Assembly (NCBI GenBank): GCA_013368375.1
Contig: JAACJP010000034.1
Span: forward strand, 372,001-436,000
DNA length: 64,000 nucleotides
Reading direction: 5' to 3'
Source of the DNA: Tricholomella constricta
Taxonomy: Eukaryota > Basidiomycota > Agaricomycetes > Agaricales > Lyophyllaceae
The stretch's first letter is position 1; each line of letters opens with the position of its first letter. The notes below the pieces were generated by a model, which did not search any database, was not told the DNA's origin, and saw nothing but the letters and a program-made list of their open reading frames with translations. Position numbers and translations under genes: made by a program. Below are positions 21,226 through 41,284 of this stretch, one piece after another.

Positions 21226-21240
21226 TTACCCCCTCCTCAA
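21226..21240 (-). other. E1 polypurine tract
   Basis: The minus-strand sequence TTGAGGAGGGGGTAA directly precedes the 3' LTR. This is where plus-strand DNA synthesis is primed in LTR retroelements, and it confirms the minus orientation of E1. Confidence 0.75.
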
Positions 21241-21447
21241 GCGTCGAGCCACTGAGACGCGGGGAGATGTTCGAATATGGATAGTGTGGCGGTTGTTTTT
21301 CTTTCTGGGTCGCGCGCGGTCACGTGAGGGGCACGTGCGGGTCTAGGTCGATTGTGGGTCCATGTGGGTGATTTGGAGGATCTCGGAGATCGAAAAAGAG
21401 GAGAGCTCTGGTTGTTTTTTCTCCTCTAATTTCTTTTTATCATCTCC

Positions 21448-23461
21448 ATGTCGGTCTTCAATCGAGATTTTGCACCCTCTGCCTCCGCTGCCCAGATTTT
21501 GCGCGACCAAGAGTTGGCGCGTTTATCCGAAGAAGATCGGGCGCGCATCGCGTTCTTGGACATGCCCCGACCCGTCTCCCCTACTCCTTCTCTCCCTGAG
21601 ATCGCCCCGTTCTCCCAGATGGAAGCGTCGGGGCCGTCCCCAGTTCTTCCCCCGTTCCTCCTACGCCCTCCTTCCCTCGACTGGTTATTTGTCTTCCGGT
21701 CCGGGCTCAGCAGATCCGTCGCCCCCGTTCGACCACTCCGGAGGCCCTTTTCGAATCTTCCAGTGATCCCGTGTCGCGTCCGGCAGCGACTTCATTGTCT
21801 TGGGGGCCCCTCTTGACAGATGCGGTTCTGGCGGAGGTGATGCGTACCGCTGTGCGGGTTCCTCCCTCTTTGGCTTGGTGTGAGGCGCACGGACCGGTAA
21901 GTATTGTCTTTCGTTTGCGATCGGGCTGGATCCTTCCGCTGATTCTCTTTTTTGGGCTCTTTGCTAGTGTGATCGGTGTCGGGGTCGTCTTCAGTCTTGC
22001 CGTTTTCAGGAGGTTCGTCTTCGTGGGACCTTGCCCTGCGTCGATTGCCGCGCGGCGCACGCCTTGTGCTTCCTGTCGCTTGACCATGGTCTAGAGGTGG
22101 CATCTAGGGAATTGGCGATCCCCTTGGCGTGGTTGCGGACCCATACCGAAGGTTTTTCCTTCTCCCGCACCGGCGTCGCTATGTCCTTTTCCGCTATCCG
22201 TTGTATCTTGCGTGTGACGTCCCCCTCCTTCGACTCCTCTCTTGTCTCCGTGCCTTCTACGGAGGTCCTTTCCCTTTCCTCTTCTTCTGGGGATGAGGCC
22301 GCCGTTCGCCTTAGCCGTGCTCCGCCTGCGCGTGCTATCTTTCGTGGTACCCGAGGACAGGGTCGAAAATTAGCGTCCGTTGGTCGTGGGGGTATGCGGT
22401 CTGGTCTGCAGGGGTCTAGGGGGTGTCCTTTGCCTCGTTCCCCCTCCCTTTCTCCCACGGCGCCGACTTCTCCTCTTTTGGTTCCTCCTTTGTCGGGCGC
22501 TACGCGTGCGGTGTCCCCCGATACGACCCCTGACGGACCTCTCTTTTTAAAGAGCTCGTCCAATTCAGTTTTGCCATCGCCAGCCCTGCAGTCCTGCCCT
22601 CCCTCCATGTTGCTGTCGTCCCCCCTCGCTACCCCTGCTCCTTCCGTTCCTTCGCCGGAGGCGTTTCTCCATCTCCAGCGTCTCTACGACCAGGAGGTCG
22701 CGCGTGCTCAGGTCCTTTCCTCCCAGGTCGAGCGTCTCGAGGTCGAGGGTGAACGCCACAAAGGTCGTTTTCACGGAGTCCTATCCCAAGTCGCTGACGA
22801 GCGTGAACGCCTTCTTCATCTGCAGGCGCAGACATCGCGTGCCGTGGAGGTCGTCGACGTCGATCGTGACGCTGAGGTTGAGGATCTGCGGATGCAGGTT
22901 GCGGGTCTCGAGGATGAGGTAGCGGGTCTTCAGGAGCACGTCGTCCATCTTCAGGAGGTCCGGGACCATTGGCGTGGTCATGCCTTGGACCTTCGCGTTC
23001 ATGTCGACGGTGAGTTTTTTGATTCGTGTCGTTCCTCTCTCGTTGTCTGAGTTTGTCATAGCCCTTGAACTTGCGCGTACCGCCTTTGCGTCGGACATGT
23101 TTGTCGCCGACGGTGCCTTGCGTCGCGCCCTCGTCGAGATGGAGGTGTCGCCGGCCCGGGATATTGTCGACGCCGCCCATAAGGTCCTGGAGCGGCATTC
23201 GCTCCTCGAGCTCTTCCCCCCTCCCGTCGACCCCGAGGTACTCTTCCCTGCGTTCGATCATTTCCTTGCTTTGCAACTTCGCTCACTCGTGAAGACGCCC
23301 TTGCGGACTTCATGTCTCGATCCCAATTAATCGCCGACGATGAGCAGGATATTGCTTCGATGCGTCCGTTGGAGGGGAAGTTGGATGGGGAGGTCGGGTT
23401 TGGTCGCGGGGAGGGTTCCACTCCGAGCGCGGGTCCGTCCAAACGTCGTCGCATTGACTAG
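21448..23461 (+). CDS. E1 antisense accessory gene: Zn(II)2Cys6-pattern cluster plus coiled coil
   Basis: This gene lies between pol and the 3' LTR and is read opposite to E1. The ATG at 21448 begins MSVFNRDFAPSASAAQIL, followed by a Pro/Ser-rich region. A frame change is needed between about 21640 and 21760, so the first exon may carry an indel. Intron 1 is 21897-21967 (GTAAGT to TTGCTAG). Exon 2 opens exactly on the first Cys of CDRCRGRLQSC, giving the spacing CX2CX6CX12CX2CX6C expected of a Gal4-type zinc cluster. A long Ser/Pro-rich linker follows, then a heptad-rich coiled coil (LQRLYDQEVARAQVLSSQVE through LQEHVVHLQEV). Intron 2 is 23010-23061. The end is provisional: one frame finishes with a basic KRRRID at 23461. 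DNA binding and dimerisation are inferred from family patterns. The role for the transposon is unknown. Confidence 0.6.
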
Positions 23462-23681
23462 TCGGTCTTCTTGGTGGTGTCTAGGACCTTCTTTGCTTTC
23501 TTTTTGTTGAATATTTACATCTGAAGTTCGTTAATTCTTTTTCCTTGGTGTTTTCTTTTTCTTGTAGTGTCGTTGTCACGGTGTTCGAAATACATTTGGT
23601 GATAGAAATCGTTTTCTTGAAGGGGTTTTTCATAAATTTTGTGAAGTGCGTGAATTTCGTCGGATTCTAGATTGTGGGGTC

Positions 23682-26600
23682 TCATGGTTTCCTTGGGAAT
23701 AGACGATGGAATTCGAGGGCCATGTCTTTTGCTCCCTCTATGTTTCCTGCTGGTTCCCATGTGTCGTCCTCAGGGCCATATCCTTCCCATCGTACCAAGT
23801 AGAGCACGTGTTTCCCTCATGTTCGGGAGTCTAGGATTCGTTCTACTTCGTAGTGCTCCTCGCCCTTGATTTCGATTGTCTGCGGAGGTGGCTTTGATCG
23901 TCCTGGGAAGTTCTCGTGTTCGTGTTTTTCGAGTAACTTGACGTGGAACACATTGTGAATTCCCTTCAGTGTCGGAGGTAGTTCCAGTCGATACGCGTGG
24001 CTGGAGATCTTCTGTAGGATTTTGAAGGGGCCCAGTCTCCGGTGGTCCAGCTTTTTGGAGGGGCGTTTCGTTTTGATGTTCCGGCAATCAAGCCATACCT
24101 CCGTTCCTACGGCCCAATCTGGTGTAGGGTCCCGTTTCTTGTCCGCGAATCGTTTGTAGGCTTCGTTTGCGATCTCTATCTCTTGGCGGAGGTAGTCCTG
24201 GAGGGTCCGGAGGTCTACGGCTACCTCCTGGGCTTCCTTTGCCGGTATGTCTTTTATAGAGATTGTCAGGCGGGGGTGATAACCCTTGTTCGCAAAGAAA
24301 GGAGAGACTCCCGTGGTCGAATGGGTCATATTGTTATACGTGAATTCCGCCAGTGGGAGCTGTGTTCGCCAGTTGGTCTGGAAGTAGTTCACGTATATCC
24401 GGAGGTACTGTTCCAGTGTCTGATTTACTCGTTCCGTCTGGCCGTCGGTCTCCGGGTGATACGCGGTCGAAAGGTTCGATTTAATGTCCAGGGCTTTACA
24501 CAGCGAGCTCCAGAAACAGGAGACGAAGAGGGTGCCCCTGTCCGATATGATGTCGTCGGGCAGTCCGTGCTTGGAGAAGACATGTTCCAAGGATAGTTGA
24601 GCAAGTTCCTTTGCTGTGTCCGTTGTGTGACAGGGTATGAAGATGCCTTGCTTGGTGAGGCGGCATACTACGACCAGTATGGCGTCGTACCCATCCGATT
24701 CCGGTAGTTCTACAATGTGGACCATGGATATGGAGGCCCACGCCCTTCGCCCAATCTGGAGTGGTTTCAATAGTCCATATGGGCTATGGCGTGGGACCTT
24801 CGCTCTTTTACAGGTATAACAGCTTCGGACGTATCGAGTGACCTCCTTCCGTAATCCGGGCCAGAAATAAGTCCTCATGATGAGTTGTGTGGTCTTTCTG
24901 ATCCCTGGATGTCCGCGCAGTTTGTGATCGTGATGTTGCTGCAGGATGTCGAGGCATAATCTGGAATGGTCCGGTACGTAGATTCTTCCGTCGCGAAGGA
25001 GTAGTTTGTGATCATCGGATAGGGAGAACGCGGAGGTCTCATCTCCGGGTCTGGGTGCATGTCTCTCGAAGAATTCGTCTCGGGGTGTGTTCCGGATGTT
25101 GTTTAGTAGGAGCTCCTCGTTCAGTATTAGGGCCGCGTTCAATCGTTCGGGGGGTAAAATGATGCGGTTGTTGAACGAATTATGATCCTGTTCGAACCCT
25201 TTCTTGGGATACACGTCTGGCCGTCGCGTGAGGGCATCTGGTTTCGCTCCTAATCTTCCGGGTCTGTAGTTTATTTGGAAGTCGAAGTTTGCCAGGCATT
25301 CCGACCATCGTGCTTGTCTGCGACTGAGTTGCTTGGTCGTAGAGAAATACTGTAGGTTGTTGTGGTCAGAGTACACTTGAATGCGGTGGGGAGATCCCTC
25401 TAGGTAGGCCCTCCATTGCTTAAACGCTTCCACGATTGCTAGGAGCTCCTTGTCATAGATGTCGTAGTTGAGCTCCGCGTCTATCATAGTTCTCGCGTAG
25501 AAGGCGACAGGACGTAAGTCTTGTGATGTCTCGTCAAATTGGGAGATGATCCCCGCTATGGCGAAGTCGGAAGCGTCGCACTCTAATATCACCGGTAGTT
25601 GAGGATCGAAGTGTCGTAGGATGGGTGCGGAGGAGAATGCTTTCTTCAATAGCTCGAAGACTCCTTCGCATTCGAAATCCCATTTCCAGATTGTGTCCTT
25701 TTGCGTGAGTTTGTTTAACCTCTTCGTTATGCCCGAGTAATTGTCGATAAACCGCCGATAGAAGTTTGCAAAGCCTAGGAAAGATTGGAGTTCCTTGACC
25801 TTCGTCGGTCTAGGCCACTTCCGGATCGCGTCGACTTTTCCTGGATCCATCTTTACTCCGCCAGGGGATACGATGACGCCTAGGTATTCGATCTCCGTAG
25901 TGTGAAACGTGCATTTCTCCGGTTTCGCATGAAGGTTGTGTTTCCGGAGCCTCTCGAGGACCTTCCAAACGTGTCCGTGATGTTCCTCTAAGGTCTCCGA
26001 GAAAACCAGAATGTCGTCGAGATAGATCACTACGAACACGTCGTTCATGTCGTGGAAGATGTCGTTCATGAAGTGTTGGAATGTCGCGGGTGAGTTTGTC
26101 ATGCCGAAAGGCATTACCAGGTATTCGAAAAGTCCATAACGAGTGCGGAAGGCTGTCTTCCATTCGTGTCCCGGAGCTATACGGACGTTGTTGTAGCCCA
26201 CTCGGAGGTCGATCTTCGAGTATACTTTCGCTTTTTGAAGTCGGTCTATGAGGTCTCCGATCAGAGGTAGAGGGTAACGGTTCTTCTTGGTGATCCGATT
26301 TAATCCTCTATAGTCCACGCATAGCCGGAGTGATCCGTCCTTCTTCTTTGCGAACAGTACCGGAGCTCCCGCTGACGAACTCGAAGGTCGGATGAACCCT
26401 TTTCCAAGCATCTCATCGATGTAATCCTTCAATGCTTTCAACTCCAGTTCGGACATGTTGTATATCTTTCCGAAGGGAGGGGTAGTGTTTTCGTCGAGTT
26501 CCACTGTGTGATCGTAAGGTCGGTGTGGGGGGATGGTTTTTGCTTCACCCGCTGAGAATACGTCTTCGAAGTCCCTGTACTCCGGAGGTATGACTTCCTC

Positions 26601-26960
26601 GAAGATTTCCTTTTCTGTCTTTGGTTGCTTGGGTTCATCGTCGGAGGTGTTATTGGCATGGAGGTGTTCTTCCTTTTCAGTGGGGGAGATGTGTAGTTGG
26701 AACGCTGTGGCTCTGTCCCTGATGAGGTTTGCGAATGGCGCCGCTCTAATCAGGCGGATGTTTTGTGTTTCGACATCCTCTTCTCCCTCTCCGGTTTCGT
26801 CTTCGACCTCCGTTTCCGGGTTGGCTTCATCTTCTTCCCGTGTTTCTGTCGTTGGGGATGTTGCGGATTTCCGTTTGGGGTGGGGTTTGAATTTGGACCT
26901 CGGAATGTTTGGAGGGAAATAGTTTCGGTGGAGGTGGTTTTCGGGTGCTTTTCCGTCCCG
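23682..26960 (-). pseudogene. E1 pol: reverse transcriptase, RNase H, integrase, chromodomain
   Basis: A frame without stops runs from 26960 to 23820. RT motifs include LRLCVDYRGLN, YSKIDLRVGYNNVRI, FGMTNSPATFQ and YLDDILVFS. RNase H follows (LECDASDFAIAG, YDKELLAIVEAF, VYSDHNNLQYF). The integrase has its zinc motif (HGHPGIRKT-type His and CYTCKRAK), ISDRGTLFVS and ETDGQTERVNQ with the catalytic Glu. The C-terminus shows VERILDSR, then a TGA at 23817-23819, then in the same frame [19 protein letters not shown], which is a chromodomain. So the chromodomain is split by a nonsense codon, with the natural end at 23682. This puts E1 in the chromovirus group of Ty3/gypsy elements, whose chromodomain steers integration. 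The upstream protease lies in a different frame. Confidence 0.85.
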
Positions 26961-27210
26961 TTACCTCCTCTGGCGACTCGGTTGTTCGGTGTTGGTACTT
27001 CCTCCTGGGTTCGTTGGTGTTTGGGCGGGTGTCTTCCTCCTTCATGTTGTCGCTGGGGTGTCGTTCTGATCGTTTTCGTCGTCCAGGAGGTCCCTGAGGA
27101 GGGTGTTGTTTCTACCGAAAGGGGGTTGGCTGGTTTCGGAGCTTCGACGTCTTCCTCCTCCTCAAGGGTCACGGTTCCCCATTGCGTCTTCTGGGAAAGC
27201 GATATCGCGG

Positions 27211-28127
27211 CTAGTTCTGCCCTTGTTCCATGGTCATGGACATTTCCCGCCAGTCAATGTCCGGATTTGCTTCCCGTAACCAAGGTAATCCGAGCACTAA
27301 TGGTGTGGCTGGATGTAATTGTGTTATGAGGAGGTCGACCTTATACTCTAGTCCGTTCTCGAGTTTGATTGTTTCGGGACTATGGTGTGAAATGGCTCCG
27401 CCTCCGCTGGGGTTTCCGTCGAACAGTTGTAGGGTCATGGGGTTGGCGAGAGGTTCCGGCTTCGTACACGAGGATTTTGTTATGAAGTTGCCCGCCGCCC
27501 CACTATCAATAAGTGCCCGTAGACGCGTTGCAGATCCCTCCAACTGTACTTCCATCGTGAAGGAGCGAGCGACCGCGAGGGTAAGCGTTGAGCTCCTGTG
27601 CCTGTTGTTGTTGGAGCGACTTCCTTTTTCCTTCGGAGGTCCGGTAGTGATCCTTCGATTTTGCCGTTTGACCCCCGTCGTAGCGTGATGCAGAGGTCTT
27701 TCCAATTTATGTGGGGATTGACCTCCTTCAGCCATGATAGTCCCAGTACTATCGTCGCTGTCTCGTGGAGTTTCGTTATGAGGAATCTTATCCTCTGAGT
27801 AGTGCCGTCACTGAATTTGACGTCGTTGGTGGTATAGTGTGTGATTTTGCCTGATGCGGAGAGTTCTCCGTCGAATAGGCAGAGGTTTATTGGGGGGTTG
27901 AGCTCCTCAAGGTGGAGCCCACGTGATGTCGCCATGACGGAGTCCATGAAGTTGTCGGTAGCTCCGCTGTCGATGAGCGTGTTTTCGGGGTCTTCTCCTC
28001 CTCCGTTTGGCGTGAGGTGTATTAGGAATGCCAGTGACGAATGGGAGGAGAGTGTTACAGTGCGGGTGTCCGTTGTCGATAATGCCGTTGCGCGTAGTTT
28101 AGTGTCAAGGCCCGGTTTCAGATCTTC
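27211..28127 (-). pseudogene. E1 protease region with two tandem retropepsin-like domains
   Basis: Reading minus, the first domain has LIDSGATDNFMDS (about 27985-27940) and later TIVLGLSWLKEVNPHINW. The second has LIDSGAAGNFITKS (about 27530-27480) and later PLVLGLPWLREANPDIDW. Both carry the active-site Asp-Ser-Gly and the ILG-like flap-following motif of aspartic retroviral-type proteases. The two domains are in different frames, so at least one indel lies between them near 27650, and the second stops at 27211 before pol. Across the E2 insertion the first domain continues from a frame that overlaps the gag end by -1. Only one retropepsin is usual. Confidence 0.7.
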
Positions 28128-28131
28128 GCGA
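28128..28131. repeat. E2 target-site duplication, left (GCGA)
   Basis: GCGA directly precedes the TGATGAGC start of the E2 5' LTR. The same GCGA follows the 3' LTR at 41285-41288. Confidence 0.75.
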
Positions 28132-29165
28132 TGATGAGCACCGTCCCGCGCTGTACACAGAACCTGCCCATAATACGGACATCAACCGCTGCGCCACGAC
28201 GAACACGGTCCCAGATGCGACCAAAGCGCCGAACCGACCGACCGACAATACGACCGACCGACCGACAATACGACCAAACGACCGACGCACCGACCAAGAA
28301 ACAGAGTAACTTGAAACGCCAACTCTCCTCTTTGGGCGCACGGAGCACGGAACGCCGTATAACCTGCCAACGACCGCGCACGTTTGTATACCAAGGTCTC
28401 AACCCGGCAACAACCAAACCCGATTGGAAATTATCGACGGAAACACCTTGCCCAGCCATTCGCAGAGAGGATCCGGCCGCACCACGGAGTTCCGCACCCA
28501 AGAGCCACTACCGATCGCAAATCCACTACCGATCATACATCCGACCCGACACCGCGGGCCGATCAAAAGCCCCTTTGCCGAGCCAAAGAGCGCCACACTC
28601 TCTAAAAAGTGTTGCGTGGTACCAAGCTTGGCGTCGCTTCTCCCGATAAACCAGTAAAACACCTGCCTCACCGGCTCGCGAGAGGCGAGTCGGTCGCATA
28701 GTATAAAAACATACCCATGTACTACCTACTTCCCCCAGTGAATTACAGCCCGTATTTTCCCTCACCCTCAGAGTTAATAGCTCAAAACTGTCGTCTCTGT
28801 CGTCTCTGCATTGTTCTCATCGTATAAACCGTCGCCACCGTCGTAAACCTCGTAACCGCCGTCTCTGTCGTCTCGTAACCATCGCCCGAACCCGTGAGTT
28901 CTCCATATTCGTCTCGTTCGTCTCGTTGTCGCACAACCGACACAAAAGTCGTGCTACCGACCCGTTCCACCTGTGAACGATCATATTCTATCGCATCGCC
29001 GTCGGTTCGACTAATTACAAGTCGGATCGTCTTTACTTTCACCGAACCACCACTTTCAAACCCTGCACACTCGCGTGTTTGGGAACTTTTAACACTTCTC
29101 GCCCCCCATAGTTGTTAGTTGTTTTGTTGTTGTGCACAGCACCTACAGGCCTTCTAGCTCTATCA
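28132..29165 (+). repeat. E2 5' LTR
   Basis: 1034 bp, beginning TGATGAGCACC and ending CTAGCTCTATCA (TGAT...ATCA). It contains a C-rich tetramer tract (CCGACCGACCGACAATACGA near 28235-28275), a TATA box TATAAAA at 28702-28708 and a downstream GTCGTC-rich region. It aligns without gaps with 40251-41284. Confidence 0.88.
28702..28708 (+). promoter_or_regulatory. TATA box in the E2 5' LTR
   Basis: TATAAAA in the context ATAGTATAAAAACATACC, about 460 bp before the LTR end. The same site is at 40821-40827 in the 3' LTR. It is the likely core promoter for the genomic RNA. Confidence 0.55.
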
Positions 29166-29168
29166 TTC

Positions 29169-29186
29169 TGGAGCCCACCGCGAGGG
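29169..29186 (+). other. Candidate primer-binding site of E2
   Basis: Three bases after the LTR lies TGGAGCCCACCGCGAGGG. It starts with TGG, the complement of a tRNA CCA end, as expected for minus-strand priming. The tRNA was not identified. Confidence 0.5.
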
Positions 29187-29650
29187 TTTTAAAAGCCACC
29201 GCCGAACACGCAGCTTCATTCCTCTTGTTCATAAAAACCTACGACTCGTCGACCATTCCGCCCGCAACCCGACAAGAAGCTAAAGCCCGAACCCTCCGTG
29301 CCGAAATTCGTGCTGCCTTCGGACAAGCCGACACCGACTCAGAATCGCTCTCCCCGCTCTTCCGCTCAGTAACACCACACCGCGCAATCCATAACAACCT
29401 CAGCCCGCTCTTCTATATCCCTTCGTCAACGCTACCGTCACCTACCCCGACCGATCAACCACCGTTCTCCGAACCAACCGCTCAAACCGACCTAGATTTC
29501 GACCCCTTTGCGTCGGAACCGCCTACTACCGATCCAGGAGTAGAATTTAGACTCCCATCTCTATCGCCCGCGACCCCAGAAACCTCAGATTCTTATTCGC
29601 CGTCGTATTCCCCCTCTCCGACCCCTCTCCCAAAAACAACACCATCAATC

Positions 29651-31954
29651 ATGGCACAACCACCGATTATTGCAAAACCGATGCCCTCGCGCGGACAAAG
29701 CTCGGCACCGACGTTCGCGCCCGAACGCGCGCGCGAACTGCGACGATATTTCTCGGACTTGAATCATCTCTTCATCGAGTGTAACGTAGTAGACGAACAG
29801 GAGAAGAAAATGCACGCTACGCGATACACCGACATCGATACCGCTGACCTGTGGGAGCAACTTGACGAGTTCGCAGCCAGTACCACATATGACGACTGGC
29901 GAAAAGCGATAATGGCGCTCTATCCAGGCGCGAGCGAAGAAAGGAAATATTCAATGGCCGACCTCGACCACCTGCTCAGGGAACGACACCGACTCGGGAT
30001 CCAGTCGAATAGCGATCTCGGGGAATATTACCGACAGTTCCTTTCGGTTACCCAATTCCTTGTCAGCAAAAACCGACTATCGATAAACGAACGCGACCGT
30101 CAATTCCGTCGCGCGTTCCAGCCCGACCTATGGGCAAAGATCCATCGTAGACTCGAGATCCTAAACCCGAACCACCATCCCGATGACCCCTATGCCACCA
30201 AAACGGTTCGCGCCGCAGCCGAACATATTTTACACGGGACAAGCGCCGTCCAGCGACAGGAAGAGCCACCGCGCGCACCCCCACAAGTTACGATAGCACC
30301 GAGCGGGTCGTTAACGGGCGCGACCAAGTCGCCTAACACAGGACAACCTCTCAAACTAGAGGAACTCCATGAAAGAATTCACCTCTTGGAACAACATATC
30401 CTACGTCTAGGACAAGACAAAGGAGGCAACGGCGGCCGACCGAACCAGTCACCTAACGACAACTGCCTCTTTTGCGGTGGCGAAGGACATTATATCTCCA
30501 GCTGTCCCGTACATCAAGCATACGCGGGAGAAGGACGCTGCCGCAGGACCGACGACAACAAGATAGGCCTGCCAAGTGGTGCGCGCATACCAGCGGGGAC
30601 CCCAGGTCGATACATAAAAGACAAACTGGACGAATGGCACAGGCGCAACCCCGGCCAACTGGCGACAGGACAGCTATCGGCAAACGCGAACCCGACCGAA
30701 AGCATGATGTTAGAGATACTACAATTTAACGACGTCACCGACCATGGCCTAAAAATCGAAGACCGCATGATTGTGTTAGAACGAGAACTCAACACGCTCC
30801 GCGCACGGAAGGAAGTGTTTGACGGCGTGGAGCTTATTAGTCGTGCACCTCAAAGGCGACCTGTCACGATCGAAACCGTTCAAGACCCCGACCAACCAGG
30901 GGTCGCACCGACCAACAAACCTGCACCCGCGTCGCAGCCTGCCCAAGACGCGACGGAAGGCAGAGCCAAGGCGCCCCCGCTACCATCCAACATACCGCTG
31001 ATCCCTAGTACTAAGGCCGACGTCACAGTCAATGCAAACGACCAGACCCCGGTGCACCCTTTCTCTAACATCCCTGAGAACCGTTACCTCCCTCCGACCA
31101 CGAGAAACTTAGCCGCTATAGAGAAGGCGAAAACCGACAGTGCGTACCGCACCCAAGCGCCCATCACAGACCCGGCCAAATCAACGACTCTGTTCGAACG
31201 CGCGCTCGACGCCACCATACCAGTTACAGTTCGTGAACTCTGCGGAGTAGCCCCAGAGGTTCGCGGAAAGTTTAGGGAAGCTAATACACCGAGACGCATC
31301 GTCGCCAGCAACCTCGCAACTGTGTATCAAGAAGTCCCCACGTCGGCGTTTATCGAGGAACTCGACGCGCTCCCCTGCGAATCCAACAGCGACAACGCGA
31401 CGCCACCGCCCGGAGCACTAGTCACCGGCGACATCTACGACACGTATTACCAGACCCTACTACCCGGCGAACACCCGGACCGATTGATCGTCGCAATGGA
31501 ATCGCACGCGCTCAGATCGATCATGATAATGGTCGACGCAAGGGAACAGATAGAAAGCATCGTCGACAGCGGATGTCAAATCATCGCAATGTCGGAAGAA
31601 GTTTGCCATGGACTGGGAGTCAAATACGACCCGACTATCGTTCTCCAGATGCAATCAGCGAACGGAACAACCGACCCGTCGCTCGGTCTAGCAAGAAACG
31701 TACCCTGTACGATAGGCGACGTTACGCTCTACCTCCAGATGCACGTCATTCGCAACCCCGCATACGATATACTCCTCGGCCGTCCGTTCGACGTACTTAC
31801 TTGTTCTAACGTAAAGACAAGATCCGCCGACGATACGATCATAACCATCACCGACCCAAACACTCGAGAGGTCATCGCAATACCGACCTTCGCGCGCGGG
31901 CAGCGTCGCCGCCCCAAGACCGACGTAAATTTTCGTATACTCTCGAGGAAATAA
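29651..31954 (+). CDS. E2 Gag-protease polyprotein
   Basis: The first ATG in this frame is at 29651 (context ATCATGG), although the frame is open without any ATG from about 29132 inside the LTR. The first part (MAQPPIIAKPMPSRG, then RARELRRYFSDLNHLF and LPxAxEERKYSMADLDHLL-like helices) is the capsid-like Gag region. A CCHC zinc knuckle follows at CLFCGGEGHYISSC. After a Pro-rich linker the aspartic protease is seen as IVDSGCQIIAMSEE with the catalytic Asp and AYDILLGRPFD near the end. The frame stops at 31952-31954, just past a -1 slippery site, so the product is either Gag-protease alone or a Gag-protease-Pol fusion. No inactivating change was seen. Confidence 0.82.
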   Translation: MAQPPIIAKPMPSRGQSSAPTFAPERARELRRYFSDLNHLFIECNVVDEQEKKMHATRYTDIDTADLWEQLDEFAASTTYDDWRKAIMALYPGASEERKYSMADLDHLLRERHRLGIQSNSDLGEYYRQFLSVTQFLVSKNRLSINERDRQFRRAFQPDLWAKIHRRLEILNPNHHPDDPYATKTVRAAAEHILHGTSAVQRQEEPPRAPPQVTIAPSGSLTGATKSPNTGQPLKLEELHERIHLLEQHILRLGQDKGGNGGRPNQSPNDNCLFCGGEGHYISSCPVHQAYAGEGRCRRTDDNKIGLPSGARIPAGTPGRYIKDKLDEWHRRNPGQLATGQLSANANPTESMMLEILQFNDVTDHGLKIEDRMIVLERELNTLRARKEVFDGVELISRAPQRRPVTIETVQDPDQPGVAPTNKPAPASQPAQDATEGRAKAPPLPSNIPLIPSTKADVTVNANDQTPVHPFSNIPENRYLPPTTRNLAAIEKAKTDSAYRTQAPITDPAKSTTLFERALDATIPVTVRELCGVAPEVRGKFREANTPRRIVASNLATVYQEVPTSAFIEELDALPCESNSDNATPPPGALVTGDIYDTYYQTLLPGEHPDRLIVAMESHALRSIMIMVDAREQIESIVDSGCQIIAMSEEVCHGLGVKYDPTIVLQMQSANGTTDPSLGLARNVPCTIGDVTLYLQMHVIRNPAYDILLGRPFDVLTCSNVKTRSADDTIITITDPNTREVIAIPTFARGQRRRPKTDVNFRILSRK

Positions 31955-34900
31955 GTCGAGATCACGGCGATCTTGCACTCCTCCTCGAGTACGACCCACT
32001 AAGCTATACCCCGACTGTCATTTCTTTCTGCGAACTACCGACCGAACTTAATAGCGACGCCACCTGCGACGCGCAACTAGCCTCACTCTACGTCGCGGCG
32101 TCCGAACTAACCACACCAGCAATCGCCGACCAATCCGTTAATACAAGCTCTACCCCTCTCGAGCGAGCGACCCTCTGCCCGATTTCACCAAACAACGAGC
32201 GCCACAGCGGGCGCTACACCCAAACTCCGACCAACACCGCAACCGACACCTTCGCTGTGAAAATCAAAGGCGTACAAACCAAAAAGAAGTACAAACCAGT
32301 GGCACAGAAAGTACGATCGATCATAGCAAGTTGTCCCGACCACTTCCGAATCGAGCGCAAGATATTGGGCAACCCGCTCGCCGATATGCCGACCTTGCTC
32401 CCTAACCCGCCACCTTTCCAACCCACCGGCCGCTACACTCTGGAGCGAAAAGAAGACCTAGACCGCGAACACCCGGATTTCCTAACGCCCGGCGAACGCG
32501 CTATTATGCACGACCTCATGTGTAAGCAGAACCTTGCTTTCGCATGGGACGACTCCGAACACGGTAGTTTTCGGTCGGACTTCTTTCCCCCCATCGATAT
32601 CCCCGTCGTCGCGCACACACCTTGGATCGAACGCAATATCCCCATACCACCTGGCATCTACGACGAAGTTTGCGACATTATCAAAACTAAACTCGCCGCC
32701 GGCGTTTACGAACCATCCAACTCCAGCTACCGATCACGTTGGTTTTGCACTCTAAAGAAGAACGGCAAGTTCCGCCTCGTCCACAGCCTCGAACCGCTCA
32801 ACCGTGTAACAATCCGACACTCGGGTGTCACCCCGATACCAGACCACGTCGCTGAACAATTCGCCGGTCGCATTTGTGGCGCAATGTTAGACCTGTTTGT
32901 CGGCTATGACGAACGGCTAATCGCACCATCGTCGCGCGATCTTACCACCTTCCAAACACCTTTCAGCGCGTTGCGCCTAGTCACCTTACCTATGGGCTGG
33001 ACCAACTCCGTCCCAATCTTCCACGACGATGTCACTCACATACTGCAACCGGAAATCCCGGACTATACGCTACCTTATATCGACGACGCTGCTATAAAGG
33101 GACCTGCAACTTGGTACCCCGACCCGGTCACAGGGTTGCCGAAAACGCACCCCGACAATGCCGATGTGCGATTCGCGATCTGGGAATTCTTCAACGACGT
33201 CAATCGCATCCTCCAGCGCATGAAGTACTGCGGCGGCACCTTCTCTGGCAAGAAGCTAGTCTTATGCGCGCCACAATTCAAAGTTCTCGGACACGTCTGC
33301 ACGCCCGACGGTCGCATACCCGACGTGGACCGACTAGCCTTACTGCGTAATTGGAAGTCGTGCGCCACGCTATCGGAGTTATGCGTGTTCTTAGGAACAG
33401 TCGGAGTGCTCAGGATATTCGTCAAAAACTTTGCTCATCGCGCGCACCACCTCGTGAAGCTAACCCGCAAGGATGCAGTCTTCGAGTTCGGCCCCGACCA
33501 GATCGCAGCGCAACGCGACATCGTTGAGGCGATCGCAGAAGCGAAACCCCTCGTACCCATCGACTACGCCTCCGACGACCCCGTCATCCTAGCCGTCGAC
33601 ACTTCACACATAGCAGTCGGATTCTACCTCTGTCAGGCCGACCCTGTCGATCGGAAACGACGCAGATACAATCGGTTCGGTTCCATCACGCTGAACGACC
33701 GTGAATCCCGATTCTCTCAACCGAAACTCGAATTTTACGGCCTGTTTCGGGCGCTTGGCGCTTTACGACTGTACGTTATAGGCGTTCGCAACCTAGTCGT
33801 CGAAGTCGACGCACGCTACATTAAAGGCATGCTCTCCAACCCCGATATCCAACCGTCAGCTTCCATAAACAGGTGGATCGTATCTGTCCTCATGTTCCAC
33901 TTCGAGCTCGTTCATGTTAAAGGCACGTTCCACGGACCCGACGGCTTATCCCGTCGCCCTCGTCAGCCCGACGACCCAACCGACAACTGTGACGCAGAAG
34001 AAGCCGACTTTGAGGATTGGGTCGACCGGATGCAAGGACTCATGCACATTATTCAACCACTGCCACAGCCACCGTCGCTATTGCATGTGCGCCAGATCTT
34101 TGCTATGGCGCAGATCTCAAGTAAGGAGGAGATGGTGGCAGTATACACCGACGCGGTACCACCAGACTCAGCGACTCACGAACTCGCAACCGACTCCCCG
34201 CGACAACCCAGAATCCGTACCGACGATGATACAGGAATAACCGATCCAAACGCGAACTCGACCGACATGTCATACGACGACGTGCCCAGGACCGACGCCG
34301 CTAAAGCCCAAGACCACCGTATAGATGCTGTTAGACAATGGTTGGCCGACCTCGAACGACCAGAAGGCATGTCCGACGACCAGTACGCCACATTCATTCG
34401 ATACGCCACCGGGTTTTTCCTAGACGGAACACGACTCTGGAGAAGAGACAGCCAAGGCGCACATAAACTAGTCGCCCGCCCCAGCGCGCGATTAGAGATC
34501 CTGCGATCGGTCCACGACAACCTCGGACACAAGCGCTTCTACGCGACACGCGCGACCCTACTCGAGCGCTTTTGGTGGCCTAATGTTCGGGCCGACGTCG
34601 TGTGGTTCGTACAGACATGTCACATATGCCAAATCCAACAAACGACCAAGGTTCTGATTCCCCCGGTCGTTGCGACACCTGCGCCACTGTTCGCAAAGAT
34701 GTACATCGACACTATGCACTTACCGCCATCGAACGGTTTCAAATATATTGTCCAAGGTCGTTGCTCCTTGATTCACTTTCCCGAATGGCGCGCACTCCGA
34801 AAGGAAAACAGTCGCACACTCGGCGATTGGATGTACGAAGACATCATCTGCCGGTGGGGCGGACTACGCGAAATCGTAACCGACAATGGCCCAGCCTTCA

Positions 34901-35697
34901 TCAAAGCCGCCGAACACCTCACAAAGAAATACCACATACACAATATTCGAATCTCAGGCTATAACTCTAGAGCCAACGGGCTCGTCGAGCGATCCCATTT
35001 CGACGTCCGACAATCCCTTTTCAAAGCCGCCGACAGAAACGAAAACAAATGGTCGCAAGCCGCTTATTCATTCTTCTGGGCCGAGCGCGTCACGATCCGC
35101 AAGCAAATGGGATGCTCTCCCTATTACGCCGCAACAGGAACCCAACCCTTGCTCCCACTTGATATCGTTGAAGCCACGTACCTACAGCCACCGCCCGACT
35201 CTGTCCTGTCCTCCACCGACCTCTTGACACGCCGCGCGATCGCCTTACAAAAACGAACGACAGACCTAGAGCGACTACATTCCGACGTATACGCGGCGCG
35301 ACGACAAGCGGCGATTTGCTTTGAACTTAAACACGCCAGAACCCTACGCGACTACAACTTTAAACGCGGAGACCTCATCCTCATGCGCAACACGAAAATC
35401 GAAAAATCGCTCAACCGCAAAATGCGATCTAGATACCTAGGACCGCTCGTCGTGATCTCACGCAACCGCGGAGGCGCCTACATCCTCTGCGAACTGGATG
35501 GCACCGTCTTACACCGGCCTGTAGCAGCGTTCCGACTCACCCCCTACTTCGCGCGAAACAACATCCTCCTACCCGACAGCGCGCTAGACATAGACACCAA
35601 GAGACTCAGAGAACTGGAAGCAACAACAATCACCGACGACGAAGACCGACCAGAAGTCGTAGGCGACGACTCCGAATCGGAAAACGAGCAGAACTAG
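31921..35697 (+). CDS. E2 Pol: reverse transcriptase, RNase H, integrase (expressed by -1 frameshift)
   Basis: The frame is open from before 31921 to the stop at 35695-35697. RT features include FRLVHSLEPLNRVTI, AMLDLFVGYDERLI, LPMGWTNSVPIF and the catalytic YIDDAAIKG. RNase H has ILAVDTSHIAVGFYLCQ, KLEFYGLFRAL and VEVDARYIKGML. The integrase N-terminus has His/His/Cys/Cys (VHDNLGHKRFYA, then CHICQIQQ). The catalytic core shows YIDTMHL (Asp), IVTDNGPAF (Asp) and GLVERSHFD (Glu). The order RT-RNase H-integrase is Ty3/gypsy-like. The RT is divergent from the one in E1, so E1 and E2 belong to different lineages. The acidic C-terminus (DDEDRPEVVGDDSESENE) has no chromodomain. Confidence 0.85.
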   Translation, partial: RRKFSYTLEEISRDHGDLALLLEYDPLSYTPTVISFCELPTELNSDATCDAQLASLYVAASELTTPAIADQSVNTSSTPLERATLCPISPNNERHSGRYTQTPTNTATDTFAVKIKGVQTKKKYKPVAQKVRSIIASCPDHFRIERKILGNPLADMPTLLPNPPPFQPTGRYTLERKEDLDREHPDFLTPGERAIMHDLMCKQNLAFAWDDSEHGSFRSDFFPPIDIPVVAHTPWIERNIPIPPGIYDEVCDIIKTKLAAGVYEPSNSSYRSRWFCTLKKNGKFRLVHSLEPLNRVTIRHSGVTPIPDHVAEQFAGRICGAMLDLFVGYDERLIAPSSRDLTTFQTPFSALRLVTLPMGWTNSVPIFHDDVTHILQPEIPDYTLPYIDDAAIKGPATWYPDPVTGLPKTHPDNADVRFAIWEFFNDVNRILQRMKYCGGTFSGKKLVLCAPQFKVLGHVCTPDGRIPDVDRLALLRNWKSCATLSELCVFLGTVGVLRIFVKNFAHRAHHLVKLTRKDAVFEFGPDQIAAQRDIVEAIAEAKPLVPIDYASDDPVILAVDTSHIAVGFYLCQADPVDRKRRRYNRFGSITLNDRESRFSQPKLEFYGLFRALGALRLYVIGVRNLVVEVDARYIKGMLSNPDIQPSASINRWIVSVLMFHFELVHVKGTFHGPDGLSRRPRQPDDPTDNCDAEEADFEDWVDRMQGLMHIIQPLPQPPSLLHVRQIFAMAQISSKEEMVAVYTDAVPPDSATHELATDSPRQPRIRTDDDTGITDPNANSTDMSYDDVPRTDAAKAQDHRIDAVRQWLADLERPEGMSDDQYATFIRYATGFFLDGTRLWRRDSQGAHKLVARPSARLEILRSVHDNLGHKRFYATRATLLERFWWPNVRADVVWFVQTCHICQIQQTTKVLIPPVVATPAPLFAKMYIDTMHLPPSNGFKYIVQGRCSLIHFPEWRALRKENSRTLGDWMYEDIICRWGGLREIVTDNGPAFIKAAEHLTKKYHIHNIRISGYNSRANGLVERSHFDVRQSLFKAADRNENKWSQAAYSFFWAERVTIRKQMGCSPYYAATGTQPLLPLDIVEATYLQPPPDSVLSSTDLLTRRAIALQKRTTDLERLHSDVYAARRQAAICFELKHARTLRDYNFKRGDLILMRNTKIEKSLNRKMRSRYLGPLVVISRNRGGAYILCELDGTVLHRPVAAFRLTPYFARNNILLPDSALDIDTKRLRELEATTITDDEDRPEVVGDDSESENEQN
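31927..31961 (+). promoter_or_regulatory. Programmed -1 ribosomal frameshift signal of E2
   Basis: The heptamer A AAT TTT (31927-31933) is of the X XXY YYZ type in the zero frame (codons GTA AAT TTT). After a 7-nt spacer comes a perfect 6-bp stem, TCTCGA (31941-31946) pairing with TCGAGA (31956-31961), with a 9-nt loop that holds most of the zero-frame stop. Slipping back one base enters the long pol frame (CGT AAA TTT TCG), which has no usable ATG at its beginning. Confidence 0.7.
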
Positions 35698-36082
35698 CCG
35701 CTCAACTCTCGACTACCCGTATACCCTTTTTTTAATAATATTTCGACATCTATCACTCCCTGGTTCCTACTCAACGCCCCACGACCCGACCGTCCGCGAA
35801 GTTCAGCACTCTGACCGACAGCTTTTCCTTTCGTTTGGTTTACCCACCACTCAATTTTCGAATCCTACACTTAATATCAGGCTCCACACGAAAACCACGC
35901 AGCACGTATTGCATTTTATGGCCCATCTTACGGGCCCCGACAACTCCAATCACAGAAAACTAAAAACAAGCGACGCCTCTAGCGGAGGAACGACGCATCC
36001 AGACGTACACAAAAAAGAAAATATACAAGGGTAGGCGCGACCAAGACCCCAAGAAGCGCGCACAACCGCCCACCGTTCGCCC

Positions 36083-38131
36083 TCACTCCACTCCCTCCTC
36101 CCCGTAGACGTCGCTACCCGCGTGCGGCGGGCCCTCGTAGTCCTCATCACTGGCCTCGCCATCAGAACCGCGACCTCCGCCATCGACACCGTCGGCCGCG
36201 CACAGCTGGTCGTACCGATCCTGGAGGAGGCGGACAGCGACAGTCGTGTCCGCAAACTGGTCGTTCAGAGTCGCCAAAGTAGAGCGGAGGACCTCTACCC
36301 GCGCCTCAGTTGTCTGGGACTCCTGGACGAGGCTGCGAAGTAAGGCGTGTCGCGACGACAGCGCGCGCTCCACGTCGGCACGAGAAAAGCGCGCAACCGC
36401 AGCAACAGTCGCCTCCCGATCACGCCCCAACCCCACCAAGTCCACATCTGCCGGCAAACACGCACCCTCGGGAATCCGCCCGCGCCGAAGATAATCCGAC
36501 CCCAGGAACGGGAGAGTCTCCGCACACTCCAGCGCGATGCGCGCAGCGGGAGCACCGATCCCGAACGGCCCGTCGGCCGCGTACAATCCGCGACGCGTGT
36601 CGGTGGGCGATGAAACAATCTGCACGTCGCCGTCGGAATCCTCAACGACGGGACGCGAAATGGGGCGACGACGAGGCCGCGCAGCCGAAGCCTTGCCACC
36701 AGGAGCGGCCGACGGAACGCAACCCTTCGACTGTATCTTGCACCGGGCGCAAGTGCCGCTGCCCGGTCGCTGAATGCAAGTCTGACTGGCGCGAACGCAA
36801 CGCTTGCACTACCAAACGAAGTTAGAAAGAAACGCCCGACAGAGGAGCCGACCGACACCTCGTACCGGAACGTCGCGAGCGAACCAATCCGGACACTCGA
36901 CCTTGAACTCCTCTAACTTCAGCTCCCAGGCGCTGGGGACCGCGGTCGTCTTCCGCTTCTTCCCTGCCTCGACGATCACGACCGATCCCTCGTCGTCCTC
37001 CCCCATCACACGCTTGCGTTTTTTGTCGGGTTCCGGGGCGGCCGACGGTGTCGCTGGCTTCGCACCTGAGAAAAGAGTTAAGCGTCGCCCGCTCACAGGA
37101 CAAAACACGATGCCAGGACAGAGCGTGGACTCACCCGACCCCACGGGGCGAGCCATTGGACGAGACGCCTGTCAAAATATAGTCAGGAGGCGAACAAGGG
37201 AACGGGCGCCACAAGGACCTACACCGGGCACCACAGGGAAGGGAAGCGCTGTCGGGCGCCCTCCGCCCGCGGAGACGTAGGCCATCTTACGCGCACCGCC
37301 GCCCTTTTTGCCCTCTCCCCGCGGGCGCACCGACGACTCTCCCCCACCAACGGCGGCGTTCGATCGACCACCTAGAGCGACCTCGGAGACGGCGCGCGAG
37401 AGAGGCGCGAGCGGGTCCCGCATAGGCTCCTCGACCTCACGCGCCATCCGCGCGGCCATGGCGGCAACGCTCGCTGCTTCCGACGACCGATGAAACTCCT
37501 CGACCGTACGCGAAACGCCATCGGTCACCGCCTTCGCCGCCAACTCTTGCATAGTAGCGCCCGCCGGAACAACGGAAGCGGTACCGTCGGCCGCGGGGCC
37601 ACCAAGGTCGGGAACCACGGGGGGCCCCCCGCCCGCCTCGTCGTCCACATCCATAAGATTCGTCTCCACCAATGCCGCCGACTCGGCAACGGGTGTGACC
37701 GCAACCTTTGACGATGCCGCGGGCTCCTCGGGCGCCACCGACTGCGAGGCGCGGCTACCGATCCCCGAACCCAGACGCTGATGCCGCTCCCGACGTCGGC
37801 GAGTGTACTCATCCTGAGGGGCAAACGCGTCGATAAACGTAAGGACACGAACAGCGGAGCGTACCTCGGGACGAAGACCCAGAAATTGGACAGACCACTC
37901 CTTGTCGCCCTCAATGCCGGCCCAGATCGACGCTAGGGCTTCCGCCTCGTCACCCCACACTCGGCGCTCCCCACCGGCCACCTGAGAGCGCAGGGACTCC
38001 ACACCCTCCAGAATGTCCTCCAAGAGATCCGCACGCATGGGGCGTGCCGCGTCTGCGGGAAGCGATTGCCAGTCGGCCCAGTCCTTTCCCAAGTTCTCCA
38101 AGACGAGCGAGTAGTCGGGGGCAGGGGTCAT
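36083..38131 (-). CDS. E2 antisense gene A: Zn(II)2Cys6-pattern cluster plus coiled coil
   Basis: Read opposite to E2, with ATG at 38131. Exon 1 starts MTPAPDYSLVLENLGKDWAD and includes VWGDEAEALASIWAGIEGD. A low-complexity Ala/Gly/Pro region follows. Introns lie near 37200-37150, at 37134-37066 and at 36865-36809. The exon 37065-36866 carries two basic nuclear-signal-like runs (KKRKR, KKRK) and LEEFKVECPDWFARDVP. The last exon (36808-36083) begins exactly with CKRCVRASQTC and gives CX2CX6CX8CX2CX6C, a Gal4-type zinc-cluster spacing. It then has PLADVDLVGLG-like and DVERALSSRHALLRSLVQ segments, a coiled coil, and an acidic end. Gene B is a clear paralogue along the whole length. Nuclear DNA binding is inferred. 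The splice sites of the second and third exons are partly uncertain. Confidence 0.66.
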
Positions 38132-38244
38132 CGCGAGTCAACAGGAAGAGAAGGAAATGAGAAAAAGAAATTGAACCAGAACAAGGCGCCAAAAAATTTT
38201 CGCACCGCCACCTCCTCCCACGCCACACACGCGCGACGCCTAGG

Positions 38245-38278
38245 CTGAGGACAGTCAGCAGTTCCAGTAAGGAGGAGC
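38245..38278 (+). repeat. PPT-like repeat, copy 1 (decayed)
   Basis: CTGAGGACAGTCAGCAGTTC then CAGTAAGGAGGAGC: a diverged copy of the 34-bp block that ends in the polypurine tract before the 3' LTR. It lies 114 bp beyond the start codon of antisense gene A. Confidence 0.6.
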
Positions 38279-38555
38279 GAAGAGACGTGGCGCACACATG
38301 GCGCCCACATGGAACAACAAGTCACATGACCCAAACAGACCACACATCCTTACAAACAGCGGCGCAAACGGTCGGACTCACCTTCACAAGACGAGACGAA
38401 CGCAACCGACCCGACACCGACAGACGTCGCCACCGCTCCCACCCTCGGCAGCGCCGTCGCCTACGACACCACCGCTCCTGAAAAACTCCCACTCCCGTCG
38501 GGGTCCATAGCCCCACCCTTAGTGGGTCGGGCAGCAGAGTCGGACTCCGGGCCGA

Positions 38556-38589
38556 CTGAGGGCAGTCGGCATTTCAAGTAAGGAGGAGA
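38556..38589 (+). repeat. PPT-like repeat, copy 2
   Basis: CTGAGGGCAGTCGGCATTTC then AAGTAAGGAGGAGA, nearly identical to the block at 40217-40250 but with no LTR behind it. It could act as a secondary priming site. Confidence 0.65.
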
Positions 38590-38793
38590 CATGCCCTACG
38601 GATGGAGCGACCCGACACCACCGACAACAAAACCGACCGACACGACGAACCGACCTGCGCCACTTAAAAACACGGGAAGTTCGAATTATAAAGAACGGCC
38701 CAATTTTAGGGCCCGCACGACAAATCAGGTATATACAAAATACGCGACCAATAAACGAGCGCAACCCGACCGCAAAACACGACAAACCCGAAG

Positions 38794-40090
38794 TCAAGGC
38801 GACGAACCCTCGCCACCATCGTCGCGTACACCACCGTCGACACCGTTTCCACTGCCGCCGCCCCCACTCCTCGAATTACCCATCGCAGACGCACCAACTA
38901 ACTCTGCGCGCCGGGCCTGAAGCAAGTCAAGGGCCGACGACGTAGACACGACCTGCCCGTAAAGCTGACGAGACGACGAACGCATGATCTCTTGGCGCGA
39001 TTCAAGGACTTGAATTTCCTGGACCAAAGTATGCAAGAAAACGGTGCGCGCCGATAGCGCCCGATCTACATCTGCAAGACCGAACCGCGAAATAACCGAC
39101 AACGGCTGGGTGAAGCCCAAACCGCGCAAATCTTCGTTACGAAGGAAGTCCTCAGGGCGGAACACCGGGCCCTGATACGGGAGACCTGCACCCCGGTCTA
39201 CCGAACCCGCCGAACGAGTTACGACAGGGCACCGAGCGGCCCTTGCCAAATCGGGTGAACGGACCGCGTCGAGCAGCGGAGGGGGCATACACGCGTCGCA
39301 AAAGTGGCCCTCCACTGAACACGACACGAACTGGTGCGGAGCTGGCCGAAATGACCCCACTTCGTTCGTCTCGCATCGCCTACACTGAATCTCGCAAACC
39401 GCGCAAATATCAATGTCGCTGCGCTGAATGCAGTCCAAGCCGTAGCTCACACAACGATCGCACTAGCCAATAGGTGAACGAAAGAACAAGGACGCAGGAG
39501 GACCGACGACTTACCGCCTCGCTACGAGCGTAATGCTCGGGGTACTCCTTCTTAAATTCCTCGAGACGTGCCAGCCACAAACGGTGTCGCATCCCTTGTG
39601 CCGCCACTACCGACTCCCCGGAGATCTCGACGACAGACTCTTCTTCGTCCCCGTCCCCACCAGAGGGAGCGCACGAACGCTCCCGAACGGCAGACCCTGC
39701 CTCTTCGTCGGTGAAGGCGGCGCGCATGCGGGCGACCGCCTCTCGGTGAGGGTAATCGGACTACCAACTAGCGCGTTAGTACGCTGCAGAAACGACCAAA
39801 TAACCAGCAAGCGAACGCACACTCGGTTCTAGATCCGCGAACCGCTCGGACCATTCGGGGTCGGACTCGATCGTAGACCATATGTTGGACAATGCCTCTT
39901 CCTCGTCGCCCCACATCCAACGCCAGGGGCTAGCCACCGGCGACCTAAGCACTTCGAGGCTGTTCGACAAGTATTGAAGCACACGGGTGCGCGCGTAACG
40001 AGGGGAGTCGGCCGACAGCGATTGCCATTCGTCCCAGTCCCGTTCCAAGAAGCGGAGAGTGTGCTGAAGATCGACAGGAGGTCTCGACAT
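38794..40090 (-). CDS. E2 antisense gene B: paralogue of gene A
   Basis: The ATG at 40090 begins MSRPPVDLQHTLRFLERDWD (an upstream in-frame ATG at 40108 is less like gene A). The N-terminus aligns with gene A: DWDEWQSL against DWADWQSL, and MWGDEEEALSNIWSTIESD against VWGDEAEALASIWAGIEGD. The middle exon ends LEEFKKEYPEHYARSEA at 39515, followed by an intron (GTAAGT to GGCTAG). The last exon starts at 39462 exactly on CDRCVSYGLDC and shows CX2CX6CX8CX2CX6C, with one extra Cys in the last spacer. An extra Cys-rich stretch (SVEGHFCDAC) follows, then a coiled coil (DVDRALSARTVFLHTLVQE) and a Gly/Ser-rich end. The border of exons 1 and 2 is unclear. A TATATATA at 40121-40128 lies just upstream. 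Confidence 0.62.
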
Positions 40091-40216
40091 AACGATGGGT
40101 AAACCCATCGAGGACTTGAATATATATAGGTCGCCAGCGCGCCGGCACCGCCACTTCCTCCTACCCCTGCCCCTCTTTTCCAAGACGAACGCCCCCTGAC
40201 CGATGCACGGGACCGA

Positions 40217-40250
40217 CTGAGGACAGTCGGTATTTCAAGTAAGGAGGAGA
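40217..40250 (+). other. E2 polypurine tract and its 34-bp context
   Basis: The block ends AAGTAAGGAGGAGA directly against the 3' LTR start at 40251. This is the plus-strand priming site. Two related copies lie inside the element. Confidence 0.8.
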
Positions 40251-41284
40251 TGATGAGCACCGTCCCGCGCTGTACACAGAACCTGCCCATAATACGGACA
40301 TCAACCGCTGCGCCACGACGAACACGGTCCCGGATGCGACCAAAGCGCCGAACCGACCGACCGACAATACGACCGACCGACCGACGATACGACCAAACGA
40401 CCGACGCACCGACCAAGAAACAGAGTAACTTGAAACGCCAACTCTCCTCTTTGGGCGCACGGAGCACGGAACGCCGTATAACCTGCCAACGACCGCGCAC
40501 GTTTGTATACCAAGGTCTCAACCCGGCAACAACCAAACCCGATTGGATATTATCGACGGAAACACCTTGCCCAGCCATTCGCAGAGAGGATCCGGCCGCA
40601 CCACGGAGTTCCGCACCCAAGAGCCACTACCGATCGCAAATCCACTACCGATCATACATCCGACCCGACACCGCGGGCCGATCAAAAGCCCCTTTGCCGA
40701 GCCAAAGAGCGCCACACTCTCTAAAAAGTGTCGCGTGGTACCAAGCTTGGCGTCGCTTCTCCCGATAAACCAGTAAAACACCTGCCTCACCGGCTCGCGA
40801 GAGGCGAGTCGGTCGCATAGTATAAAAACATACCCATGTACTACCTACTTCCCCCAGTGAATTACAGCCCGTATTTTCCCTCACCCTCAGAGTTAATAGC
40901 TCAAAACCGTCGTCTCTGTCGTCTCTGCATCGTTCTCATCGTATAAACCGTCGCCACCGTCGTAAACCTCGTAACCGCCGTCTCTGTCGTCTCGTAACCA
41001 TCGCCCGAACCCGTGAGTTCTCCATATTCGTCTCGTTCGTCTCGTTGTCGCACAACCGACACAAAAGTCGTGCTACCGACCCGTTCCACCTGTGAACGAT
41101 CGTATTCTATCGCATCGCCGTCGGTTCGACTAATTACAAGTCGGATCGTCTTTACTTTCACCGAACCACCACTTTCAAACCCTGCACACTCGCGTGTTTG
41201 GGAACTTTTAACACTTCTCGCCCCCCATAGTTGTTAGTTGTTTTGTTGTTGTGCACAGCACCTACAGGCCTTCTAGCTCTATCA
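40251..41284 (+). repeat. E2 3' LTR
   Basis: 1034 bp, TGATGAGC...CTATCA, followed by the duplication GCGA (41285-41288). The few differences from the 5' LTR are almost all transitions. Confidence 0.88.

Follow-up and report, generated by a model that had tools for sequence, protein, structure and literature searches.

What do genes that lie in reverse orientation between pol and the 3′ long terminal repeat (LTR) of a retrotransposon do for the element that carries them? This question is raised by a 64,000-nt stretch of the 44-Mb genome of Tricholomella constricta (hereafter the window, in whose own numbering all positions are given), in which a minus-strand LTR retrotransposon of the chromodomain family, E1, harbors one such gene, and a plus-strand element nested inside it, E2, harbors two paralogues, A and B. 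Antisense genes at this position had been proposed in an initial annotation and are borne out by the anatomy of both elements and by their placement across the genome. We see about an even chance that the two families each carry an antisense accessory unit whose proteins are self-acting regulators of their own element. Its transcription would start at a promoter next to the 3′ LTR and finish tail-to-tail with pol, and the products of the unit would be nuclear, dimeric DNA-binding regulators. Their likeliest target would be a dyad, CCG-N12-CGG, which precedes the antisense genes of E2 and touches both the polypurine tract (PPT) and the 3′ LTR.

Searches of the host's own genome with the zinc-cluster exon of each gene returned at least 152 matches for A (B-type places included), at least 171 for B (A-type places included) and at least 126 for E1. 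The A and B lists overlap; after merging, the matches listed, to which all totals here and below refer, comprise 108 E1-type, 82 A-type and 77 B-type gene places, the last from a subset of B-exon matches that excludes rows coinciding with A-type places. Among these, 78 of the 82 A-type (non-B) places converge on an E2-type pol no more than 1.5 kb away (of the other four, two touch contig ends), and A is present at 78 of 87 E2 pol places; this count excludes 12 pol rows of 36–52% identity, none of which lies near an A place by eye. Gene B is followed by A within 4.5 kb downstream at 69 of its 77 places. Likewise, 101/108 E1-gene places lie tail-to-tail with an E1 pol no farther than 3 kb away; conversely, the antisense gene is present at 101 of the 107 E1 pol places. 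The LTR side of the genes is seen in the window, in the alignment of E1 copies, and through a sequence module at the LTR border. Sister pol families at 36–52% identity (C4:285311, C1:227989, C7:292472 and others) have no detectable A, B or E1 gene, indicating gain or loss of the module by whole families.

In this genome, homologues are thus found mainly beside pol; the opposite finding, homologues mainly at ordinary host loci, is what the initial annotation had named as fatal to its proposal. The placement also bears on whether the antisense genes are captured host genes that travel as passengers. Zn2Cys6 genes are common in fungi (a genome-wide search with PF00172 finds 33 places here at E≤0.1, 30 of them over the cut-off), and introns would suit an origin from a cellular gene. 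However, pol is absent beside only 4/82 A-type and 7/108 E1-type places, several of them at contig ends, and constraint on the genes persists across deep cassette divergence (see below), so that we regard mere passengers as most improbable. The 33 PF00172 places, compared by eye, include none of the antisense genes.

The antisense gene of E1 lies on the plus strand and consists of a first exon (21448–21896, placed by copy alignment), an exon with the zinc cluster and coiled coil (21968–23009) and a last exon (23062–23461), whose intron and stop codon position are common to six aligned copies. The window copy is damaged, as frame-shifting differences from the other aligned copies disrupt its first and last exons. 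Gene A, on the minus strand, is predicted to have five exons and to encode 605 amino acids open when spliced: four upstream exons within 36866–38131 (38131–37865, 37813–37223, 37168–37135 and 37065–36866) from the spliced model, and a zinc-cluster and helical exon (36083–36808) supported by genome matches and by the ratio of nonsynonymous to synonymous substitution rates (dN/dS, omega). Of its introns, the one before the zinc exon was compared across copies. For gene B, also on the minus strand, the spliced model predicts three exons and 394 amino acids, with upstream exons at 40090–39821 and 39760–39515 (39515–40090 overall) and a zinc-cluster and helical exon at 38794–39462 that is backed by genome matches and dN/dS. 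The first exons of A and B are paralogous (47% identity in a shared N-terminal segment, tblastn), and their zinc exons are 31% identical. In an annotated T. constricta protein, P0001, the zinc exon is joined to a stretch labelled DUF6534, probably through the fusion of gene models; the splice that this annotation predicts ahead of the cluster falls at the same site as in the present models.

The cysteine spacing given in the initial annotation holds: A and B of the window have C-X2-C-X6-C-X8-C-X2-C-X6-C, and E1 has X12 in place of X8. Clusters of the PF00172 family follow the rule C-X2-C-X6-C-X5-12-C-X2-C-X6-8-C, which is satisfied by 16/16 aligned clusters and by 67 of the 68 loci L009–L076. 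The one miss is L068, a partial match, and as three pairs of loci contain the same genes twice (L021/L025, L022/L026, L024/L027), the cluster is kept in 64/65 places. C1, R3, C4, C11, C20, C23 and C30 are invariant in the 16 clusters of both families, and in an alignment of 15 A/B sequences all six Cys fall within the 16 invariant columns.

In the E1 gene as well as in A and B, a phase-0 intron ends immediately ahead of the first Cys codon. In line with this, AG directly precedes that codon in 67/67 cluster-bearing loci of both families, and a GTRNG word, a loose test for a donor site, lies 50–83 nt upstream in 67/67. Identical intron positions in E1 and A/B are unlikely by chance and point to a common zinc exon, which suggests that one ancestral zinc exon stands behind both families; in a profile comparison of E1 with A/B, the zinc segment alone aligns. 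The pol genes give a different picture. Local matches between E2 pol and E1 pol reach 21–24% identity, placing E2 in a separate lineage. The view of two unrelated elements therefore stands for pol and fails for the zinc exons, which share their intron position. With exon and intron shared, the unit may once have passed between two pol lineages.

How far the cluster resembles that of known transcription factors is less clear-cut. Of 16 short cluster peptides, 13 match PF00172, the family with most members, at E≤10 (best 6.9e-4). As in Gal4 and Put3, both members of PF00172, the cysteine spacing, a weak but repeated Pfam match and a helical segment following the cluster are seen; in contrast to them, the linker between cluster and helix is longer, A and B have few basic residues, no further Pfam domain is detected and the genes reside in retroelements. 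In Gal4-type factors, the DNA contacts are made by basic residues located between Cys 2 and Cys 3. Here the window E1 cluster has two Arg (CRGRLQSC), and A/B clusters have none to two, with none in several. Hence, of the Gal4-type assignment made initially, the Zn(II)2Cys6-like spacing stands, but the PF00172 match is weak and basic residues are few in most A/B clusters, so that it is at best a diverged Zn2Cys6-like cluster. A coiled coil after the cluster, claimed for all three products, is supported in E1, where the heptad excess is matched by 6/300 shuffles, and weakly so in A (33/300) and B (16/300). In the AlphaFold model of A, short helices follow Cys 1 and Cys 4, and there are two long helices (mean pLDDT 59); both AlphaFold models are of low confidence, too weak to judge a two-zinc fold.

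These features would also suit structural or replication cofactors, i.e., partners of the capsid, of reverse transcription or of the integration complex, whose cluster binds RNA or protein rather than DNA. Basic residues are absent from most A/B clusters, the low-confidence model suggests long helical segments, and the pairing of A with B, which share the N-terminal segment, could form a complex. On the other hand, a separate antisense promoter would make a supply in step with gag-pol awkward, and an antisense gene was detectable at none of 15 E1 sister-family pol places (48–51% identical), so that such elements do not generally require it. We therefore consider a cofactor role quite unlikely, though less so than passengers.

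Codon-level analysis showed that the genes are maintained. Across 26 hand-picked copies, of which six are E1, fifteen A and five B, stops are absent from the antisense frame (26/26), which is the sole frame open in every copy; the other five frames carry stops throughout, except for one frame of L073. Omega values (NG86) are 0.26–0.34 for the E1 antisense gene in 15 copies with dS ≥0.36, 0.13–0.45 for A in 25 copies with dS >0.1, many of them near saturation, and 0.20–0.43 for B in ten pairs. Excluded from this set were the pol value of L030 (wrong match) and the antisense dS of L035 (saturated). Judged by these ratios, the antisense genes are under purifying selection over long distances. They are presumably transcribed. 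Where pol dS exceeds 0.1, pol has omega values of 0.04–0.21, compared with 0.13–0.45 for the antisense genes, indicating that pol is the more constrained.

In E2, both B and A are preceded by the module CTCCTCCTTACTTGAAATRCCGACTGYCCTCAGTCGG, which contains the dyad CCGACTG-N4-CAGTCGG. Three minus-strand copies are found in the window: one ahead of gene B at the border of the 3′ LTR (40213–40249), one with a perfect dyad between B and A (38552–38588) and one with a degenerate dyad before A (38245–38277). In the window, two occurrences of the dyad compare with 0.07 expected, and four of the PPT part with 0.11. Across the genome, a 31-nt form of the module with up to three mismatches has 135 sites, while the reversed-pattern control has none. 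When 100 listed sites were set against subsets of the A-type and B-type places, 57 turned out to lie ahead of a B zinc exon, 36 of an A exon and 7 of neither, and in 50 of the 57 B-side sites the distance from module to zinc exon is 781–805 nt. A second motif, GTGGCRGTGC, occurs in 12/14 aligned upstream stretches. In L013 and L015–L019 both arms of the dyad are altered, to CTGACTG/CAGTCAG.

The E1 antisense gene is likewise preceded by a putative promoter (21226–21447, plus strand) comprising a PPT complement, a different dyad, GCGTC-N10-GACGC (21241–21260), and an E-box pair (21314–21337). The dyad block is exact in 30 and the E-box block is kept in 28 of the 33 loci L039–L071, as seen alongside an alignment of 10 copies. 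The E-box pair itself, GGTCACGTGAGGGGCACGTG, is strongly conserved in copies of this putative promoter region.

In its first half, the E2 module exactly complements the PPT located at 40249, at the 3′ LTR. The module might thus be a PPT with a hairpin rather than an operator; its internal copies would then serve as additional sites for plus-strand initiation and for recombination, and the genes would be kept for another reason. A further PPT copy in E2 pol, AAGTAAGGAGGAG, resembles a central PPT (34116–34131, minus strand; also near 6395 in L072 and, with one or more mismatches, near 2938 in L023), and for two of the three window modules the sense RNA forms a hairpin that folds better than the majority of shuffled sequences (z −2.6 and −2.5, against −1.3 for the third). 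However, the pol copy of the PPT lacks the dyad, the 781–805 nt spacing is kept in most B-side modules, and the second motif follows in most aligned stretches. Overall, we find a pure priming function somewhat unlikely, though a serious contender. Under the regulator model, binding to the dyad would autoregulate antisense transcription, and this in turn would tune either sense expression or plus-strand and LTR function.

Comparison of synonymous divergence between pol and the antisense genes indicates that the two do not always share a history. Measured against the window copy L009, L031 has an antisense dS of 2.0 but a pol dS of 0.285, and L011 shows the opposite pattern (0.125 vs 0.456); measured against L039, L064 has an antisense dS of 0.379 vs 0.013 in pol. 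Sliding identity between L009 and L029, L031 or L037 falls from 88–97% in pol to mostly 40–63% in the cassette, with the drop at the pol end. Phylogenetic trees of E2 (A trees exclude L015, L018 and L030) are in line with this: in the pol tree L009–L012 group with L029–L038 (support 0.96), whereas in the antisense-exon tree they group with L013–L020 (0.997), and L028–L038 group with L075–L076 (1.0). A history separate from pol is thus supported by trees and dS in E2, and by dS in E1. Recombination between pol and cassette appears to be the simplest reading, and the internal module copies may be points at which it occurs.

Based on these patterns, we tentatively propose, with appreciable doubt, that the antisense unit works as an exchangeable cassette for self-recognition, composed of a zinc-cluster regulator and its own dyad next to the PPT and LTR, and that it has been recombined between retroelements and once across pol lineages. 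Its exchange would shift which relatives regulate an element, much as phages and plasmids alter the specificity of their repressors. Under the regulator model, exchange would alter the specificity of self-control and could help to free an element from the regulation exerted by relatives or from host silencing.

Cassette exchange could also track an arms race in which the proteins bind element DNA and lift host repression. Plant VANDAL elements encode VANC proteins that act against host silencing. Such a function would fit the weaker constraint on the exchangeable genes than on pol, and pol frames are open over long stretches (1535 and 1295 amino acids) in many copies. Pfam scans of genes and exons, however, found no chromatin or RNA-silencing domain, and the module before the genes points first to self-regulation; anti-silencing is therefore, in our view, unlikely.

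Several observations weigh against the proteins being DNA-binding self-regulators with exchangeable specificity. The cluster peptide of window gene A is not among the 13 that match PF00172, full exons match this family weakly (1/15 and 4/8, E 0.035 or worse), whole genes A and B have no Pfam match at E≤1, and most A/B clusters have few of the basic residues that would contact DNA. In the gene B of L081 and L082, which belong to one E2 sublineage, the cluster is lost and the helical part kept. Stops are present in 18 of 126 E1-exon matches and in 10 of the listed A-exon matches, and little about selection can be read from the 13 E1 copies that are nearest (dS 0.011–0.037, omega 0.55–2.73). The dyad is imperfect in several cassettes, and the PPT half and hairpin potential of the module fit plus-strand priming instead. 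Finally, the E1 trees, based on 13/29 copies, differ in branch lengths and have topologies without clear conflict.

Antisense genes in retroelements have precedents. HBZ, which is encoded by human T-cell leukemia virus 1 (HTLV-1), is a basic leucine zipper (bZIP) protein. Zhao et al. reportedly described, in 2011, an additional antisense gene, brtn, in Boty-like elements of Botrytis cinerea. A review describes plant elements in which antisense genes occupy the stretch from pol to the 3′ LTR, and names Boty (PMC7264820), and an additional open reading frame, brtn, of Boty in Botrytis is mentioned in PMC8365987. Our elements resemble Boty in being fungal LTR elements with an additional antisense gene (PMC8365987, PMC7264820); Boty resides in an ascomycete, and the likeness is one of description. 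Closest in layout are plant Retand/Tat-type elements, which carry antisense open reading frames between pol and the 3′ LTR in all clusters, with TRP28 in 97% (PMC11963269). They share with E1 and E2 the place, the orientation and the presence in most copies, and the Retand protein is suggested there to bind DNA and regulate (PMC11963269). In contrast, Retand has the TRP28 domain and is confined to plants, and a Pfam scan for TRP28 (PF04195) gave no match at E≤1 in A, B or the E1 zinc exon; the accessible portions of the Retand account contain neither cassette exchange nor a PPT/dyad promoter module (PMC11963269). HBZ is described in the same source as the product of an antisense gene and as a nuclear-localised regulator (PMC11963269), a likeness by description to an animal retrovirus protein.

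Thus, although the initial annotation knew of no such arrangement, antisense genes of this placement were already known from plants, and an antisense gene from Boty (brtn), in both cases without an assigned function (PMC7264820, PMC11963269). What appears to be new here is the zinc-cluster version and the exchangeable cassette: zinc-cluster antisense genes, the gene pair, cassette exchange and the promoter module of fungal LTR elements were not found in a literature search that had subscription papers mostly outside its reach. A single genome offers at least 108 E1-type, 82 A-type and 77 B-type places with a recognisable DNA-binding-type domain. The candidate binding site is testable in vitro, and through the natural swaps, what the antisense protein does can be told apart from what pol and LTR do. 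Should the proteins prove to bind the dyad, retroelements would carry and trade their own transcription factors.

The remaining parts of both elements complete the picture. The E1 pol (23817–26504, minus strand) has Pfam matches to reverse transcriptase, RNase H and integrase and is convergent with the antisense gene; a chromodomain (PF00385, E 5.7e-10) matches at 23706–23816, just after the pol stop, and E1 is, by this chromodomain at the pol end, a chromovirus. The pol end of the E1-type copy L071 looks chimeric, with overlapping matches to E1 pol at 96% and then 54%, and may mark one more point of exchange. The 3′ LTR of E1 (20871–21225, minus strand) has TGT...ACA borders in the copy alignment and is 78% identical to about 44181–44525; given this low identity of the pair and no target repeat noticed, the window E1 may be an inter-element recombinant. 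E2 is bounded by plus-strand LTRs at 28130–29165 (5′, TG border at 28132) and 40249–41284 (3′), which pair over 1036 bp at 99.3%, and GCGA flanks both ends when the LTR is read as TG...CA (28132, 41284). Between them lie, on the plus strand, a gag/protease open reading frame (29132–31954) with a Pfam aspartyl protease match and pol (32257–35697). The latter matches RNase H and the integrase zinc domain but gives no RVT_1 match at E≤1, and the reverse transcriptase of E2 is evidently a diverged one.

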